Positions 24,307 to 31,020 of a DNA stretch of 32,963 nucleotides are shown here, one piece after another. Where the stretch lies: assembly GCA_937900875.1 (NCBI GenBank), contig CALCGD010000238.1, forward strand, positions 1 through 32,963, read 5' to 3'. The position numbers and the translations under genes were made by a program. Under the pieces are notes generated by a model. It was not told where the DNA came from, did not search any database, and saw only the letters and a program-made list of their open reading frames with translations. The stretch's first letter is position 1, and every line of letters starts with the position of its first letter. This DNA comes from an uncultured Flavobacteriales bacterium. Lineage in GTDB: Bacteria > Bacteroidota > Bacteroidia > UBA10329.

Positions 24307-24413
24307 GGTATTCAGGTTTTGATACCACTAATTTAATGGAGTTAGGCTAAAACTGAATTCGTATAATGTATTTCGACCTGCATTATCAGTTTGATTTTTG
24401 TCTTCCGGAAAAC

Positions 24414-24457
24414 GTATGCATGCATAATAGTTTTCAACATTTGGTATGCATGCATAC
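24414..24457 (+). promoter_or_regulatory. Twin palindromic operators upstream of marR (candidate regulator binding sites)
   Basis: Two copies of GTATGCATGCATA, at 24414-24426 and 24444-24456, are exactly 30 bp apart, about three helical turns on the same face. The second is a perfect 14-bp palindrome (24444-24457). Both hold the 12-bp palindrome TATGCATGCATA. They lie 22 and 52 bp before the marR ATG. Dimeric MarR proteins bind such palindromes and often control their own operon; the assignment is inference. Confidence 0.7.
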
Positions 24458-24478
24458 TATTTTATAAATTCGCATTCC

Positions 24479-24964
24479 ATGGCCACAAAACGTCATTTAC
24501 GTCCAGAAGAAAGTGTGTGTTTTACCACAAAAACCACATGGCATGCTATATCTAGATTGTACAACACAACTGGGGCTGAGCACGATGTAAGCGCTGCATC
24601 TGGGTTCGTATTGCTGAATATTGATTTAGAAAATGGGTCGCCTGCAACTAAGATTGCTCCTGCTTTAGGAATGGAACCTCGCAGTCTTACTCGAATGCTG
24701 AAAAGCATGGAAGACAAAGGCTATTTGTATCGCCAAGCTGACCCAACAGACGGACGGGTGATGCGCATTTTCTTAACAGAAGAAGGCAAGAAAAAACGTG
24801 AACTAGCCAAAATTGGAGTGGTTGCTTTCAACAAAGCGGTAAGAGAAATTGTTCCACCTGAGAAGTTGGACATCTACTTTGAAGTGGCCAACAACATCAA
24901 TGAAATAATCGACAAGAAGTCGATATACGATAAAGTGAATATTAACGGAATAAGTCAACAATAA
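24479..24964 (+). CDS. MarR-family transcriptional regulator
   Basis: A 161-aa winged-helix regulator. The recognition part is PATKIAPALGMEPRSLTRMLKSMEDKGYL (about 50-80), followed by the wing DPTDGRVMRIFLTEEGKK, both highly typical of MarR. The start is the ATG at 24479, since the upstream in-frame codons at 24446 run through the second palindrome. It heads the beta-oxidation operon with a 5-bp gap to the fadN-like gene. It probably senses an acyl-CoA or fatty acid and controls the operon through the twin palindromes; the ligand is inference. Confidence 0.92.
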   Translation: MATKRHLRPEESVCFTTKTTWHAISRLYNTTGAEHDVSAASGFVLLNIDLENGSPATKIAPALGMEPRSLTRMLKSMEDKGYLYRQADPTDGRVMRIFLTEEGKKKRELAKIGVVAFNKAVREIVPPEKLDIYFEVANNINEIIDKKSIYDKVNINGISQQ

Positions 24965-24969
24965 ATAAC

Positions 24970-27366
24970 ATGAAGAGAACTATTAAAAAAGTAGCAGTAC
25001 TTGGTTCTGGAGTGATGGGCTCGCGGATTGCGTGCCATTTTGCGAATGTCGGTCTAGAAGTGCTTTTGCTTGACATTGTACCAAGAGAACCTAACGCTAC
25101 GGAAGCTGCAAAAGGTCTTACAACAGATCATCCTGCGGTTAGAAACAGAATTGTGAACGATGCGTTGCAATTCGCTATCAAATCGAACCCAAATCCGCTT
25201 TACAAAAAGTCATTCGCAAATAGAATTACTACCGGAAACTTTACAGATGATATGGCCAAAATTGCTGATTGCGATTGGACCATTGAAGTTGTAATTGAGC
25301 GTTTGGACATTAAGAAGCAAGTGTTTGAGAATGTGGAGAAATACCGCAAACCAGGAACACTTATCACTTCTAATACTTCAGGTATTCCAATCAACCAAAT
25401 GTTAGAAGGAAGAAGCGAAGATTTCCAGAAGCATTTCTGCGGAACTCACTTCTTTAACCCACCACGTTACCTGAAATTGTTGGAGATTATCCCAACTGCT
25501 AAAACAGATCAAGCGGTCGTTGATTTCCTAATGGATTACGGTGATCGTTTCCTAGGAAAGACAATGGTTCTTTGTAAAGACACACCTGCTTTCATCGCCA
25601 ACCGAGTTGGTGTTGCAAGTATTCAGGCTCTTTTCCACTTGGTGGAAGAAATGGACCTGACAGTTACTGAAGTTGATAAGATGACTGGACCGATTTTAGG
25701 TCGTGCCAAGTCCGCAACATTCAGAACTTGTGATGTAGTTGGATTGGATACGCTCGTGCTTGTTGCAGGCGGATTGAAAGCCAACTGCCCAGACGATGAA
25801 GCAAGAGCAACATTTGATATGCCAAGCTACATCTCTAAAATGACTGAGAAAGGTTGGTTAGGTTCTAAATCAGGACAAGGATTCTTCAAGAAAGTTGGAA
25901 GAGATATCCTTGAATTGAATCTAAAAACCATGGAATATCAGGAAGCTGCGAAAGTTGATTTCCCAACATTGAAAGCTGCGAAAGCGGAAGACAACTTGAA
26001 GGCTAGAATGAAAATTCTTGCTGGTGGAACCGACAAAGCAGGCGAATTCTACAGAAAAGCATTCTACGGATTGTTCCAATATGTATCGAACAGAATTCCT
26101 GAGATTACCGAAGACTTATATAAGATAGATGATGCGCTTGGTGCTGGTTTCGGCTGGCAGTTAGGGCCATTTGCTACTTGGGATGCTTTGGGCGTTGCTG
26201 AGGCGGCAAAAGCCATGGAAGAAGCTGGAAAGAAACCTGCTCAGTGGGTTTACGACATGCTTGCTGCTGGTTGCAACACGTTCTATTCTGTCAAGGATGG
26301 AAAGAAGATGTACTACGACATTCCGTCTAAGTCATACAAAGTTGTTCCGGGAACTGAGCACCTTATCATCTTGGACAACCTTCGCGAAACCAACGTGGTT
26401 TGGAGCAACAGCGGAGCAACCATTTTCGATATAGGCGATGGCGTTCTAAACTTGGAATTCCACACGAAGATGAATACCATCGGAAGTGAAATTCTACAAG
26501 GAATTAACAAAGCCATTGATCTTGCCGAAGGCGATGCTAAATGGAAAGGGATTACAATTGCAAACAACGGAGATAACTTCTCCGCAGGAGCAAACCTTGG
26601 AATGATTTTCATGCTTGCTGCACAGCAGGAGGTGGAAGAATTAGATATGGCAGTTAAGGCATTCCAAGACACGGTAATGAGAATTCGTTACTCGTCAATT
26701 CCAGTTGTTTCTGCACCTCATGGCATGGCTTTGGGTGGTGGTTGCGAAATTTGTTTACACTCTGATAAAGTTGTTGCAGCAGCAGAAACCTACATCGGAC
26801 TTGTTGAGTTCGGAGCAGGAGTTATTCCAGCTGGAGCAGGGTCGAAAGAGATGGCTTTGCGCGCTTCTGATGATTTCCAGAAAGACAACTTGGAGCTTCC
26901 AGCTTTGAGAGAGCGTTTCCTAACCGTTGGTATGGCTAAGGTTGCCACATCGGCTGAGGAAGCATTCGAACTCGGCATCTTCCGCAAAGGAATTGATGAG
27001 GTTTGTGTGAGTTCGGAAAGGCGAATTGCGAGAGCAAAACGTGCAGTTCTTGAATTGCATGAGCAAGGTTATTCTCGACCAGTAGAAAGAACAGATATTA
27101 AGGTTTTGGGCAAGAAAGGCCTCGGAATTTTCGTTGCAGGTGCAAGAAGCATGGAAAGCGCCAAGTACATTTCTGAACATGACAGAATTATTTCTGAAGA
27201 GTTTGGTTACGTTTTGGCAGGAGGCGACCTCTCTGCAGCAACAGAAGTTTCAGAACAATATTTGTTGAAACTAGAGAGAAAAGCATTCCTAAAACTTGCC
27301 ATGACCAAAAAGTCGATGGAAAGAATGCAGAGTCTAGTGACAACAGGTAGACCACTCAGAAACTGA
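24970..27366 (+). CDS. fadN: 3-hydroxyacyl-CoA dehydrogenase / enoyl-CoA hydratase (FadN-like)
   Basis: A 798-aa bifunctional beta-oxidation enzyme. The N-terminal NAD-binding domain has VAVLGSGVMGSRIACHF (about 8-24); the dehydrogenase signature HFFNPPRYLKLLEIIP lies near 160, and the C-terminal dehydrogenase domain carries FIANRVG. The enoyl-CoA hydratase/isomerase part lies after it (about 500-680; NFSAGANLGM, ALGGGCEI oxyanion-hole regions). This order (dehydrogenase first) is that of B. subtilis FadN (about 789 aa), the reverse of E. coli FadB. Cytosolic. Together with the following thiolase and acyl-CoA dehydrogenase it forms a fadNAE-like operon. Confidence 0.93.
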   Translation: MKRTIKKVAVLGSGVMGSRIACHFANVGLEVLLLDIVPREPNATEAAKGLTTDHPAVRNRIVNDALQFAIKSNPNPLYKKSFANRITTGNFTDDMAKIADCDWTIEVVIERLDIKKQVFENVEKYRKPGTLITSNTSGIPINQMLEGRSEDFQKHFCGTHFFNPPRYLKLLEIIPTAKTDQAVVDFLMDYGDRFLGKTMVLCKDTPAFIANRVGVASIQALFHLVEEMDLTVTEVDKMTGPILGRAKSATFRTCDVVGLDTLVLVAGGLKANCPDDEARATFDMPSYISKMTEKGWLGSKSGQGFFKKVGRDILELNLKTMEYQEAAKVDFPTLKAAKAEDNLKARMKILAGGTDKAGEFYRKAFYGLFQYVSNRIPEITEDLYKIDDALGAGFGWQLGPFATWDALGVAEAAKAMEEAGKKPAQWVYDMLAAGCNTFYSVKDGKKMYYDIPSKSYKVVPGTEHLIILDNLRETNVVWSNSGATIFDIGDGVLNLEFHTKMNTIGSEILQGINKAIDLAEGDAKWKGITIANNGDNFSAGANLGMIFMLAAQQEVEELDMAVKAFQDTVMRIRYSSIPVVSAPHGMALGGGCEICLHSDKVVAAAETYIGLVEFGAGVIPAGAGSKEMALRASDDFQKDNLELPALRERFLTVGMAKVATSAEEAFELGIFRKGIDEVCVSSERRIARAKRAVLELHEQGYSRPVERTDIKVLGKKGLGIFVAGARSMESAKYISEHDRIISEEFGYVLAGGDLSAATEVSEQYLLKLERKAFLKLAMTKKSMERMQSLVTTGRPLRN

Positions 27367-27400: not shown

Positions 27401-27988
27401 ATGCCAAAATTTCGATTTAAATATTTCGTCTTACTAATGCTTATCTCAGCACCTTTTTTGTCCGTTGCCCAAAGCGAAAAACGACCAAAGTATTCGCCTA
27501 GGAAAGACAAGCATAAAAATGTGCGAGATGAGTTTGACCGAAAACAAGGCCTTTGGAAACTCTATTCAGCATCTCGTCTCATTATTGCGGAAATCGAATA
27601 TCTCAACGACAAAAAGCACGGAATGTCTATGAGGTATTATCCACACACGGGAGAGATGATGGAGCAAGCAGAATACTTTGATGGTAAGAAGCACGGTGAG
27701 TACAAGAAATTTTACTACACCGGAGCGGCAAAAACCGAAGGTGAATATGACCTTAATAAACGAACTGGCTATTGGGTAAATTATTATCACAATACTGGCG
27801 AAATAAGGTCGGAAGGTTCTTACCAACGAGGTCAAAAACATGGTGATTGGAAATACTATAATTCGAAGGGAGACCTCAATTATACCTACACCTATGACAA
27901 AGGCGTGCTTGTGGCAAAAGATGGAGTGTCAATTGAGGAATTGAAAAAACAAGAAGAACAAAAGAATCAAACGATAAACATTAAATAA
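27401..27988 (+). CDS. Secreted MORN/YwqK-like repeat protein
   Basis: A 195-aa protein. A signal peptide spans residues 1-24 (hydrophobic, ending SVAQ). Four or five repeats of about 23 aa follow, with the pattern YY-x-TG-x-x-x-x-EY-x-x-G-x-(K/R)-x-G-x-W (about 45-170), as in YwqK-like proteins and MORN repeats. A charged C-terminal tail ends it. No T9SS tail and no lipobox Cys, so probably periplasmic. YwqK-like proteins are often labelled antitoxins in databases, but there is no toxin here. It lies inside the beta-oxidation operon, 34 bp after fadN and only 1 bp before the thiolase gene, so it is co-transcribed; its link to fatty-acid metabolism is unknown. Confidence 0.82.
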   Translation: MPKFRFKYFVLLMLISAPFLSVAQSEKRPKYSPRKDKHKNVRDEFDRKQGLWKLYSASRLIIAEIEYLNDKKHGMSMRYYPHTGEMMEQAEYFDGKKHGEYKKFYYTGAAKTEGEYDLNKRTGYWVNYYHNTGEIRSEGSYQRGQKHGDWKYYNSKGDLNYTYTYDKGVLVAKDGVSIEELKKQEEQKNQTINIK

Positions 27989-27989
27989 A

Positions 27990-29165
27990 ATGGACGCATA
28001 TATAGTAGCAGGATTTAGGTCAGCCATAGGAAAGGCGCCAAGGGGAGTTTTCAAATTTTCTCGTCCTGATGATATTGCCGCAGAGGTTATCAAGCATTTG
28101 GTAGCTTCTGTACCGACTTTAGATAAAGACACGATTGACGATGTAATGGCTGGTTGTGCAACACCTGAAGCGGAACTCGGACTGAACATCGGAAGAATGA
28201 TTTCTTTGATGGGATTGGATACCGTTAAAGTTCCTGGAGTTACCGTGAACAGATACTGTTCGTCAGGTTTAGAAACTATTGCCATGGCAGCTGCAAAAAT
28301 TAATGCTGGAATGGCTGACTGCATTATTGCGGGTGGTGTAGAGAGTATGAGCCCAATGCCATTTGGTGGTTGGACTGTAACTCCAAACGTAAACGTGGCC
28401 CAAAATCATTCAGATTGGTACTGGGGAATGGGATTAACTGCTGAAGAAGTTGCTGAGAAGTACAAGATTAGCCGTGAGGATCAGGATATTTTCTCTGTAC
28501 GATCTCATGACCGTGCTTTGGCTGCCATCGCAAGCGGAAGATTCAAAGATGACATCGTTCCAATTACGGTGAACGAAGTTTACTTGGATGCAAGCGAAAA
28601 CCGTCAAGAGCGCTCTTTCGTGGTTGATACAGATGAAGGTCCGCGTAAAGGATCAAACGTAGAAGCTCTTTCTAGACTTCGACCAGTTTTCAAAACTGGA
28701 GGTTCTGTAACCGCTGGAAACTCATCACAAACTTCTGATGGTGCTGCCTTTGTAATGGTGGTTTCTGAGAAGAAATTGAAAGAATTAGGAGTTCAGCCAA
28801 TTGCAAGAGTTGTGTCCTATGCTGTAACTGGTTTGGAGCCACGCGAAATGGGTGTTGGTCCAATCACTGCAATTCCGGCTGCATTGAAGCAAGCCGGTTT
28901 GAACCAAAACCAGATGGACATTATCGAACTAAACGAAGCATTTGCTTCTCAGTCTTTGGCTGTTGTTCGTACACTCGGTTTGGATGACACGAAAGTGAAC
29001 GTGAACGGTGGAGCAATTGCTCTTGGTCACCCACTAGGTTGTACTGGCGGAAAACTAACGGTTCAGGTAATGAACGAATTGAAGAAAACAGGCGGTAAGT
29101 ACGGAATGGTAACCATGTGTGTGGGAACAGGACAGGGCGCTGCTGGAATCTTCGAAATGATGTAA
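27990..29165 (+). CDS. fadA: Acetyl-CoA acyltransferase (3-ketoacyl-CoA thiolase)
   Basis: A 391-aa thiolase that cleaves 3-ketoacyl-CoA with CoA to acetyl-CoA and a shortened acyl-CoA, the last beta-oxidation step. The nucleophile is Cys90 in NRYCSSGLE, the acid-base residues are His347 in GGAIALGHPLG and Cys377 in MCVGTGQG, and the GGVESMSPMP block is present. Length and motifs fit FadA. The 1-bp gap to the preceding stop suggests translational coupling with the MORN-protein gene. Confidence 0.95.
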   Translation: MDAYIVAGFRSAIGKAPRGVFKFSRPDDIAAEVIKHLVASVPTLDKDTIDDVMAGCATPEAELGLNIGRMISLMGLDTVKVPGVTVNRYCSSGLETIAMAAAKINAGMADCIIAGGVESMSPMPFGGWTVTPNVNVAQNHSDWYWGMGLTAEEVAEKYKISREDQDIFSVRSHDRALAAIASGRFKDDIVPITVNEVYLDASENRQERSFVVDTDEGPRKGSNVEALSRLRPVFKTGGSVTAGNSSQTSDGAAFVMVVSEKKLKELGVQPIARVVSYAVTGLEPREMGVGPITAIPAALKQAGLNQNQMDIIELNEAFASQSLAVVRTLGLDDTKVNVNGGAIALGHPLGCTGGKLTVQVMNELKKTGGKYGMVTMCVGTGQGAAGIFEMM

Positions 29166-29229: not shown

Positions 29230-31020
29230 ATGGAAACAGTAGAAAAAAAAGCCCTCCAAGGTGGAGAGTGGCTTATAAGAGAAACCAATTGCCAAGATAT
29301 TTTCACTCCTGAAGAGTGGACGGAAGAGCAATTGATGATTGCACAAACTTGCCGTGATTTTATCGCACAAGAAGTATCTCCAAACTTGGATAGAATCGAT
29401 TCAATGGAGGAGGGTCTGATGAAAGGTTTGATGGACAAAGCCGGAGAGCTTGGTCTATTGGCTATTACTGTTCCTGAAGAATTTGGAGGAATGGGGGCTA
29501 GCTTCAATACAAGCTGTTTAGTAGCCGAAGCAACTGGTCATGGACATTCGTTTTCTGTAGCTATTTCAGCACATACAGGAATTGGAACATTGCCAATTCA
29601 GTATTACGGAAATGCCGATCAACATACCCGTTACTTGCCAGGATTAGCTTCTGGAGAATTAAAAGCTGCTTATGCTTTGACTGAGCCTTCTTCGGGATCT
29701 GATGCTAACTCTGGAAAAACCAAAGCGGTTCTTTCTGAAGATGGAAAGCATTACATCCTTAACGGACAGAAAATGTGGATTACCAATGCAGGTTTTGCAG
29801 ACGTTTTCACTGTTTTCGCCAAGATTGATGACGACAAGAACCTTACAGCGTTCATCGTTGATGGAGACTCAGAAGGATTGACTTTAAACGCAGAGGAGAA
29901 GAAACTCGGCATCAAAGGTTCTTCTACACGTCAGGTGTTCTTTAGTAATGTGAAGGTTCCTGTAGAGAATTTACTTTCTACGAGAGGAAACGGATTCAAG
30001 ATTGCTGTAAACATTCTAAACATTGGTAGAATTAAGCTTGGAGCTGCTGGAATTGGTGGTGGAAAGCAGTGTATTACACAGTCGGTAAACTATGCAAATG
30101 AGCGTGAGCAATTTGGTCGTCCTATTTCTAAGTACGGAGCCATACAGCACAAATTAGCGCAGCAAGCTATCCTTACATGGGTAAACGAAACGTCTTGTTA
30201 CCGTGCTGGACAGGATATCGAAAACTGCATTGAAAGCTTTATTACTGGCGGAATGGCACCAGAAAAAGCAAAGCTTAAGGGTGTTGAATCTTACGCAGTT
30301 GAATGCGCCATTCTGAAGGTTTTCGGTTCTGAAGCAATCGACTATATCGTTGATGAAGCAGTTCAGATTTATGGTGGAATGGGCTTTAGTGCCGAAGCAC
30401 CAGTTGAGCGTGCTTACCGAGATGCGCGTATCAACAGAATCTTTGAAGGAACCAACGAGATTAACCGAATGCTAACGGTAAACATGCTGTTGCAGAAAGG
30501 ACTGAAAGGCCAAATGGACTTAATGGGACCTGCACAGAAAGTTGCTGGTGAATTGATGAGCATCCCAGAATTAGGAGAAGCTGATGATACGCTTTTCGCA
30601 AAGGAAAAAGGCTATTTAAGAAACTTCAAGAAAGCTGCTTTGATGGTTGCTGGTTCTGCTGTTCAAAAACTGGCAATGAGCTTAGCAAAAGAGCAAGAAG
30701 TGTTAATGAATGTTGCTGATATGCTTATCGGAATTTACACAGCTGAATCTGCACTTCTTCGTGCTGAGAAAATTGCAAGTGTTCAAGGAGAAGCAGCTGC
30801 ATCAGTTCAAATCGATATGGTCCGAGTTTACATCACCGATACTGCCGATAACATGGCAAAGTGGGGTAAGGATGCCATTTCTTCTTACGCTGAAGGCGAT
30901 GAGTTGAAAATGATGGTTCTTGGATTGAAGAGATTCACCAAAACTGACATCTACAACTCTAAAGATGCCCGAAGAAGAATTGCTAAAGTGATTATTGACG
31001 AGAACAAATATCCTTGGTAA
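29230..31020 (+). CDS. fadE: Acyl-CoA dehydrogenase (FadE-like)
   Basis: A 596-aa flavoprotein that makes the trans-2-enoyl-CoA in the first beta-oxidation step. The N-terminal helical domain is followed by the FAD-binding signature (YALTEPSSGSDA, KMWITNAGFADVF) and by YGGMGFSAEAPVERAYRDARI. The catalytic base is Glu406 in FEGTNE, as in VLCAD-type enzymes. A C-terminal extension of about 170 aa is present, typical of B. subtilis FadE and VLCAD-like enzymes (about 590-600 aa). It is last gene of the operon. Electrons would go to an ETF encoded elsewhere. Confidence 0.94.
   Translation: METVEKKALQGGEWLIRETNCQDIFTPEEWTEEQLMIAQTCRDFIAQEVSPNLDRIDSMEEGLMKGLMDKAGELGLLAITVPEEFGGMGASFNTSCLVAEATGHGHSFSVAISAHTGIGTLPIQYYGNADQHTRYLPGLASGELKAAYALTEPSSGSDANSGKTKAVLSEDGKHYILNGQKMWITNAGFADVFTVFAKIDDDKNLTAFIVDGDSEGLTLNAEEKKLGIKGSSTRQVFFSNVKVPVENLLSTRGNGFKIAVNILNIGRIKLGAAGIGGGKQCITQSVNYANEREQFGRPISKYGAIQHKLAQQAILTWVNETSCYRAGQDIENCIESFITGGMAPEKAKLKGVESYAVECAILKVFGSEAIDYIVDEAVQIYGGMGFSAEAPVERAYRDARINRIFEGTNEINRMLTVNMLLQKGLKGQMDLMGPAQKVAGELMSIPELGEADDTLFAKEKGYLRNFKKAALMVAGSAVQKLAMSLAKEQEVLMNVADMLIGIYTAESALLRAEKIASVQGEAAASVQIDMVRVYITDTADNMAKWGKDAISSYAEGDELKMMVLGLKRFTKTDIYNSKDARRRIAKVIIDENKYPW

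Follow-up and report, generated by a model that had tools for sequence, protein, structure and literature searches.

Which protein would recognize two nearly identical palindromes that stand before a beta-oxidation operon in an uncultured Flavobacteriales bacterium, and what would it control from there? The initial annotation described palindromes at positions 24414 to 24457 of the window (the whole stretch of DNA analysed, 32,963 nucleotides), 30 bp apart, with 13 bp in common and one of them a perfect 14-bp palindrome. This was borne out by the letters of the window. Both copies lie where they had been placed, before the operon, with 13 identical bp and a distance of exactly 30 bp:

24414 to 24427, no strand assigned: distal copy of the putative operator, GTATGCATGCATAA, with a 12-bp perfect palindrome inside
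24444 to 24457, no strand assigned: proximal copy of the putative operator, GTATGCATGCATAC, a perfect 14-bp palindrome

Based on the comparisons below, we consider it very probable that an autorepressing MarR, which would control beta-oxidation in the class, has these twin palindromes as its operator. The genes behind them run in the order marR-fadB-(orf195)-thiolase-acyl-CoA dehydrogenase:

24479 to 24964, plus strand: marR-family regulator gene (P0001, 161 aa), a presumed repressor, recognized by Pfam and by fold
24970 to 27366, plus strand: fadB/fadN-like 3-hydroxyacyl-CoA dehydrogenase / enoyl-CoA hydratase, from profile matches
27401 to 27988, plus strand: 195-aa ORF within the operon
27990 to 29165, plus strand: acetyl-CoA C-acyltransferase (thiolase, fadA-like), from profile matches
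29230 to 31020, plus strand: acyl-CoA dehydrogenase, Bacillus-type FadE (NF058590, 779.7 bits against a cut-off of 600)

The regulator contains a MarR domain (Pfam PF01047, 43.2 bits, cut-off 24.6). Its monomer model (pLDDT 84.4) has the helix/strand order H-H-H-H-E-E-H-H of the MarR fold, in which dimerisation helices at the N- and C-terminal ends flank a winged helix, and, among the matches listed, resembles MarR-type regulators with Z up to 15.2, DNA-bound MepR and SlyA being among the best. This predicted fold likeness alone shows no ligand. The NCBIfam equivalog models did not place the protein with OhrR (37.2 of 200) or FabT (21.7 of 200); OhrR was its best NCBIfam match, yet far below the cut-off. 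The FadE of the operon is of Bacillus type, and its FadB shows the Staphylococcus/Bacillus domain order. The 195-aa ORF gave no Pfam match and matched an adhesin model only weakly; relatives from several families keep it in the same position. A second, paralogous MarR is encoded in the genome (L082, G000:C37:12981-13388, 45% identical) and has relatives in the genus; neither palindrome nor fadB was found near any of them.

Could the palindromes be a product of chance, or a selfish repeat, and have no regulatory role? Near matches within the window are not above chance, since two were found with up to two mismatches allowed and 1.59 were expected, both of the two being exact. On the other hand, exact TATGCATGCATA occurs at just two places in the whole genome of 3,602,974 bases, namely the twin copies, and its reversed control at none. 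The random scatter through the genome that would have spoken against an operator was looked for and not found. Given these two exact copies per 3.6 Mb and the conservation at marR loci described below, palindromes with no role are scarcely credible. A chance origin of the word is ruled out by its genome rarity, the footprint and the held-out loci.

The proximal copy lies between two predicted promoter elements:

24440 to 24443, plus strand: putative -33 element TTTG, by sequence, abutting the proximal copy
24465 to 24472, plus strand: putative -7 box TAAATTCG, a near match to Bacteroidetes TAnnTTTG

TTTG corresponds to the -33 consensus. The box TAAATTCG lies 8 nt 3' of the proximal copy. A Flavobacterium psychrophilum study (PMC9723704) gives TAnnTTTG at -12 to -5 as the sigma-A box. 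Across relatives, a -7 box matching at least five of six letters begins 8-13 nt after the word in 43 of 50 loci, and in 11 further loci the box matches only four of six. The start of marR is most likely the ATG at 24479, not the ORF-finder's ATG at 24446, which falls within the second palindrome. If TAAATTCG is the -7 box, transcription would start at about 24477, two bases 5' of that ATG. The marR mRNA would be nearly leaderless, because the ATG is only 6 nt behind the box. Several orthologues have a marR start and -7 box arrangement resembling that of the window. Since the proximal word sits between TTTG and TAAATTCG, a bound repressor would cover the promoter core.

This position also bears on whether the MarR might act as an activator, or repress marR only while fadB is served by an internal promoter. 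Some orthologues have as much as about 150-180 nt between marR and fadB, which leaves room for a second promoter. In the window, however, the gap is only 5 nt, the proximal site lies across the promoter core as a repressor's would, and in the family f2 the word also stands directly before fadB and fadE. We therefore regard such an arrangement as quite unlikely.

Conservation of the motif was followed from the genus outwards. The distal copy is retained in all five genus relatives with an intact locus (four with the exact core word TATGCNNGCATA, one at nine of ten letters), and the spacing between copies is exactly 30 bp in all five. On the 5' side of the distal word, a stretch of about 15 nt (within 24395-24413, TCTTCC...AAAACG) is likewise similar within the genus, including L014-L016, and the sequence farther upstream is divergent among its members; this stretch is perhaps another promoter element. 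Searching 148 genomes for the MarR gave a close match in 71. The footprint set comprised 77 fetched loci and the window, 78 in all, and was reduced to 77 when L058, which ends too near the gene, was dropped; 65 have fadB directly behind marR and 12 do not. Exact TATGCNNGCATA was found between -130 and +20 of 59 of the 65 fadB-adjacent marR genes, and a word of nine of ten letters or better at 62. The three loci at nine of ten are L120, L122 and L071, the word of L122 being its sole one and sitting at -106. The remaining three loci have no good site (L061, L070 at eight of ten, and L080). Shuffled upstream regions would yield 0.053 loci among all 77, and the reversed word was found upstream of marR at 0 of 77. 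Among held-out marR loci, 12 of 14 carry the exact word and one a word at nine of ten; the sole locus with no fadB behind it has none.

The outer letters of the operator were read from 61 loci picked for an exact core, their flanks being unselected. Symmetric bases were found at A(-6) in 46, T(-3) in 49, A(+14) in 49 and T(+17) in 50, and the motif centre is AT, GT, AC, TT or AA in 58. Adding these outer bases to the core gives the operator AnnTnnTATGCNNGCATAnnAnnT; the proximal copy has all four of them and the distal copy three.

Because the word lies before the same genes in many relatives that have the same regulator gene, it is very probably the landing site of the MarR, through which fat breakdown would be turned on and off. 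Another, possibly global, regulator could in principle bind it, with MarR a mere passenger of the operon. Families f2 and f54 do have the word at genes that are not beside marR, and the case for MarR binding is drawn from sequence. The company that the word keeps argues otherwise. Twenty genomes of the class have no MarR match at 1e-20, and 14 of these possess FadB; in all 14 the exact word was missing from the 0.65-1.5 kb stretches searched upstream of fadB. The difference from 59 of 65 is significant by a Fisher test that ignores kinship (p = 3e-11). The word is also present at the two lone marR orthologues of family f2 (L125 and L077, with no fadB behind), and the window's own genus has it in the operon only. 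A passenger MarR is thus improbable. MarR paralogues away from fadB, including L082, had the exact word in 0 of 10 cases. All 28 genomes with a MarR match in a phylum sample of 148 fall in the window's class. Taken together, conservation and co-occurrence strongly support the motif as the operator of this MarR, and its palindromes lie near the regulator's own predicted promoter. One MarR-less genome (L381) has, by eye, a TetR-like ORF directly before fadB.

From these observations we infer binding, the sign of regulation, the ligand and cooperativity in the following form. A MarR homodimer would bind each copy; at the proximal copy, between -33 and -7, it would block RNA polymerase at the promoter of marR-fadB-orf195-fadA-fadE, and the MarR would thereby repress both its own gene and beta-oxidation. 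An effector derived from fatty acids would release it, an acyl-CoA being the likeliest. A second dimer would most likely sit on roughly the same face at the distal copy, which is 30 bp or 2.9 turns farther upstream, and tighten repression. In F. psychrophilum, beta-oxidation genes go up with fish mucus and plasma, according to the same study (PMC9723704). This is as expected of a substrate-inducible system.

Similar to the MarR/SlyA autorepressors (MarR, SlyA, MepR, OhrR and HpaR), the window's regulator has the winged-helix domain and fold and a palindrome in its own promoter; the 12-bp GCnnGC-centred palindrome presumably resembles the SlyA word. Unlike in those systems, the targets are beta-oxidation enzymes. 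CouR, a repressor of the MarR family that senses p-coumaroyl-CoA, resembles the model with Z values of 14.5 (PDB 5cyv) and 13.9 (6c28), an acyl-CoA-bound form included, and its acyl-CoA thioester effector is, by analogy, of the kind proposed here. CouR serves aromatic acid breakdown, and when the two structures are aligned only some 20% of the residues are identical. Control of beta-oxidation by acyl-CoA release is known from FadR of E. coli (GntR type), FadR of Bacillus (TetR type) and PsrA. These would do the same job as the window's MarR, but belong to unrelated protein families with unrelated operators.

The initial annotation also suggested a new fatty-acid regulon motif; this is supported for the class, with an outcome that differs between lineages. 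For the genome of the window, a regulon beyond the operon was rejected: exact TATGCNNGCATA has three further sites there, each within another gene, and one-mismatch words show no excess (64, against 64 for the reversed control). Five genus relatives contain 19 exact words, of which the operon accounts for nine; the control word was counted 10 times. As 19 minus nine equals the control, there is no genus regulon beyond the operon, and etfB has no site in four genus genomes. The operator was found at more than one beta-oxidation locus in f2 and f54, whereas the own genus has the single operon.

Counted over three genomes of family f2, the exact word has 39 occurrences and the reversed word 8. 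We inspected all 11 sites of G123, all 14 of G091 and 6 of 14 of G326 (AT, AA and TT centres). In this family, to which the lone marR genes L125 and L077 belong, the word stands before marR, fadB and fadE at separate places: marR at three loci, fadB at two separate loci and fadE at three with twins. It also precedes other acyl-CoA dehydrogenases (L181, L195), etfB (L173), an enoyl-CoA hydratase (L186), an SDR (L196), a GMC oxidoreductase (L197) and a 4Fe-4S protein (L183, L190). The listed gene types account for 5 of 11 sites in G123 and 10 of 14 in G091, the remainder falling inside ORFs or close to different genes. Because GMC and SDR proteins form broad families, not every gene in this list is certain to be a fatty-acid gene. 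The 4Fe-4S protein behind the word at L183 and L190, in two f2 genomes, has 456-463 aa, and may pass ETF electrons to the chain. In family f54, the word lies before etfB in all three genomes examined, before an FMN oxidoreductase of the 2,4-dienoyl-CoA reductase type in two, and before a ketoacyl-synthase III gene in one. Elsewhere, the exact word lies at -65 of etfB in G049 (f42), G091 has a word at nine of ten before its etfB, and etfB of G021, G131, G011 and G009 has none.

It is likely, with somewhat less assurance than for the operator itself, that we are looking at an undescribed, class-wide MarR that would do the job of FadR through AnnTnnTATGCNNGCATAnnAnnT, with a dispersed regulon or a phased, cooperative twin of about 29 bp in particular lineages. 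The dispersed regulon of several lineages (fadBA, fadE, etfBA, 2,4-dienoyl-CoA-reductase-like and other acyl-CoA genes) would have grown from a one-operon switch. A search of the open-licence literature yielded no article that deals with the word or with MarR control of beta-oxidation in Bacteroidetes. Bacteroidota play a major part in degrading organic matter, yet in the open-licence papers searched no regulator is named for the way they break down fatty acids. The present analysis provides a candidate regulator, an operator word and a list of targets that lend themselves to testing in hosts that can be cultured, among them Polaribacter, Tenacibaculum and Winogradskyella. One regulon at differing stages of dispersal is also a natural case for the study of regulon growth.

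The twin arrangement itself recurs. Scanning 395 genomes of the class for twin words matched 23, against 2 for the reversed control; 19 of the 23 loci are at marR-fadB, two (L140, L141) lie before a stand-alone fadE and two (L142, L155) are unrelated. Among 84,980 named species, at least 118 twin loci were found and 80 were listed. Of these 80, 71 lie within -40 to 400 nt of a marR, fadB or fadE homologue, or 72 with L207, where a DUF4442 gene comes behind the twin, followed by fadB and thiolase. L247 is cut off by the contig end, and the seven others, in records labelled non-Bacteroidota, are apparently chance matches. Polaribacter and Winogradskyella are among the marine Flavobacteriaceae that have the twin, and relatives of Emticicia or Lacihabitans have such sites at split genes.

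At marR the spacings, among the matches listed, are 27 (2), 28 (14), 29 (36), 30 (4), 31 (1), 34 (1) and 37 bp (4). Thus 57 of the 62 fall at 27-31 bp; these are mostly Flavobacteriaceae and share ancestry. The recurrence would suit a pair of dimers on about the same face of the DNA. Spacer length is kept better than its letters, since spacers of one length are only 51-55% identical, and this is an argument for a geometric need, though no proof of one. The cooperative one-face binding proposed by the initial annotation is therefore plausible, but 30 bp amounts to 2.86 turns and other spacings occur (15, 25 and 32-44 bp; 37-44 bp at eight fadE loci among the matches listed). With this variety, a general rule of exactly three turns between the copies is rejected. 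Many orthologues carry one site only, so the twin is dispensable for basic function. A degenerate second-site search upstream of the proximal word, in 55 loci from outside the genus not selected for a twin, gave only a weak signal at -29, where the column mean was 3.65, compared with 2.69 over all columns (the column means having a spread of 0.25), and 8 of the 55 had at least six of ten letters.

At L138, L139, L143, L199, L204, L219, L249 and L273, two words bracket the -7 region at a spacing of 34-37 bp, the second being beside or overlapping the marR start, which is a different operator layout. L223, L250 and L258, labelled Limnohabitans, Rhodobacteraceae and Nostoc, have a Bacteroidota-type locus and are probably mis-binned or contaminant contigs; the twin-site stretch of L258 is identical to that of Emticicia L272.
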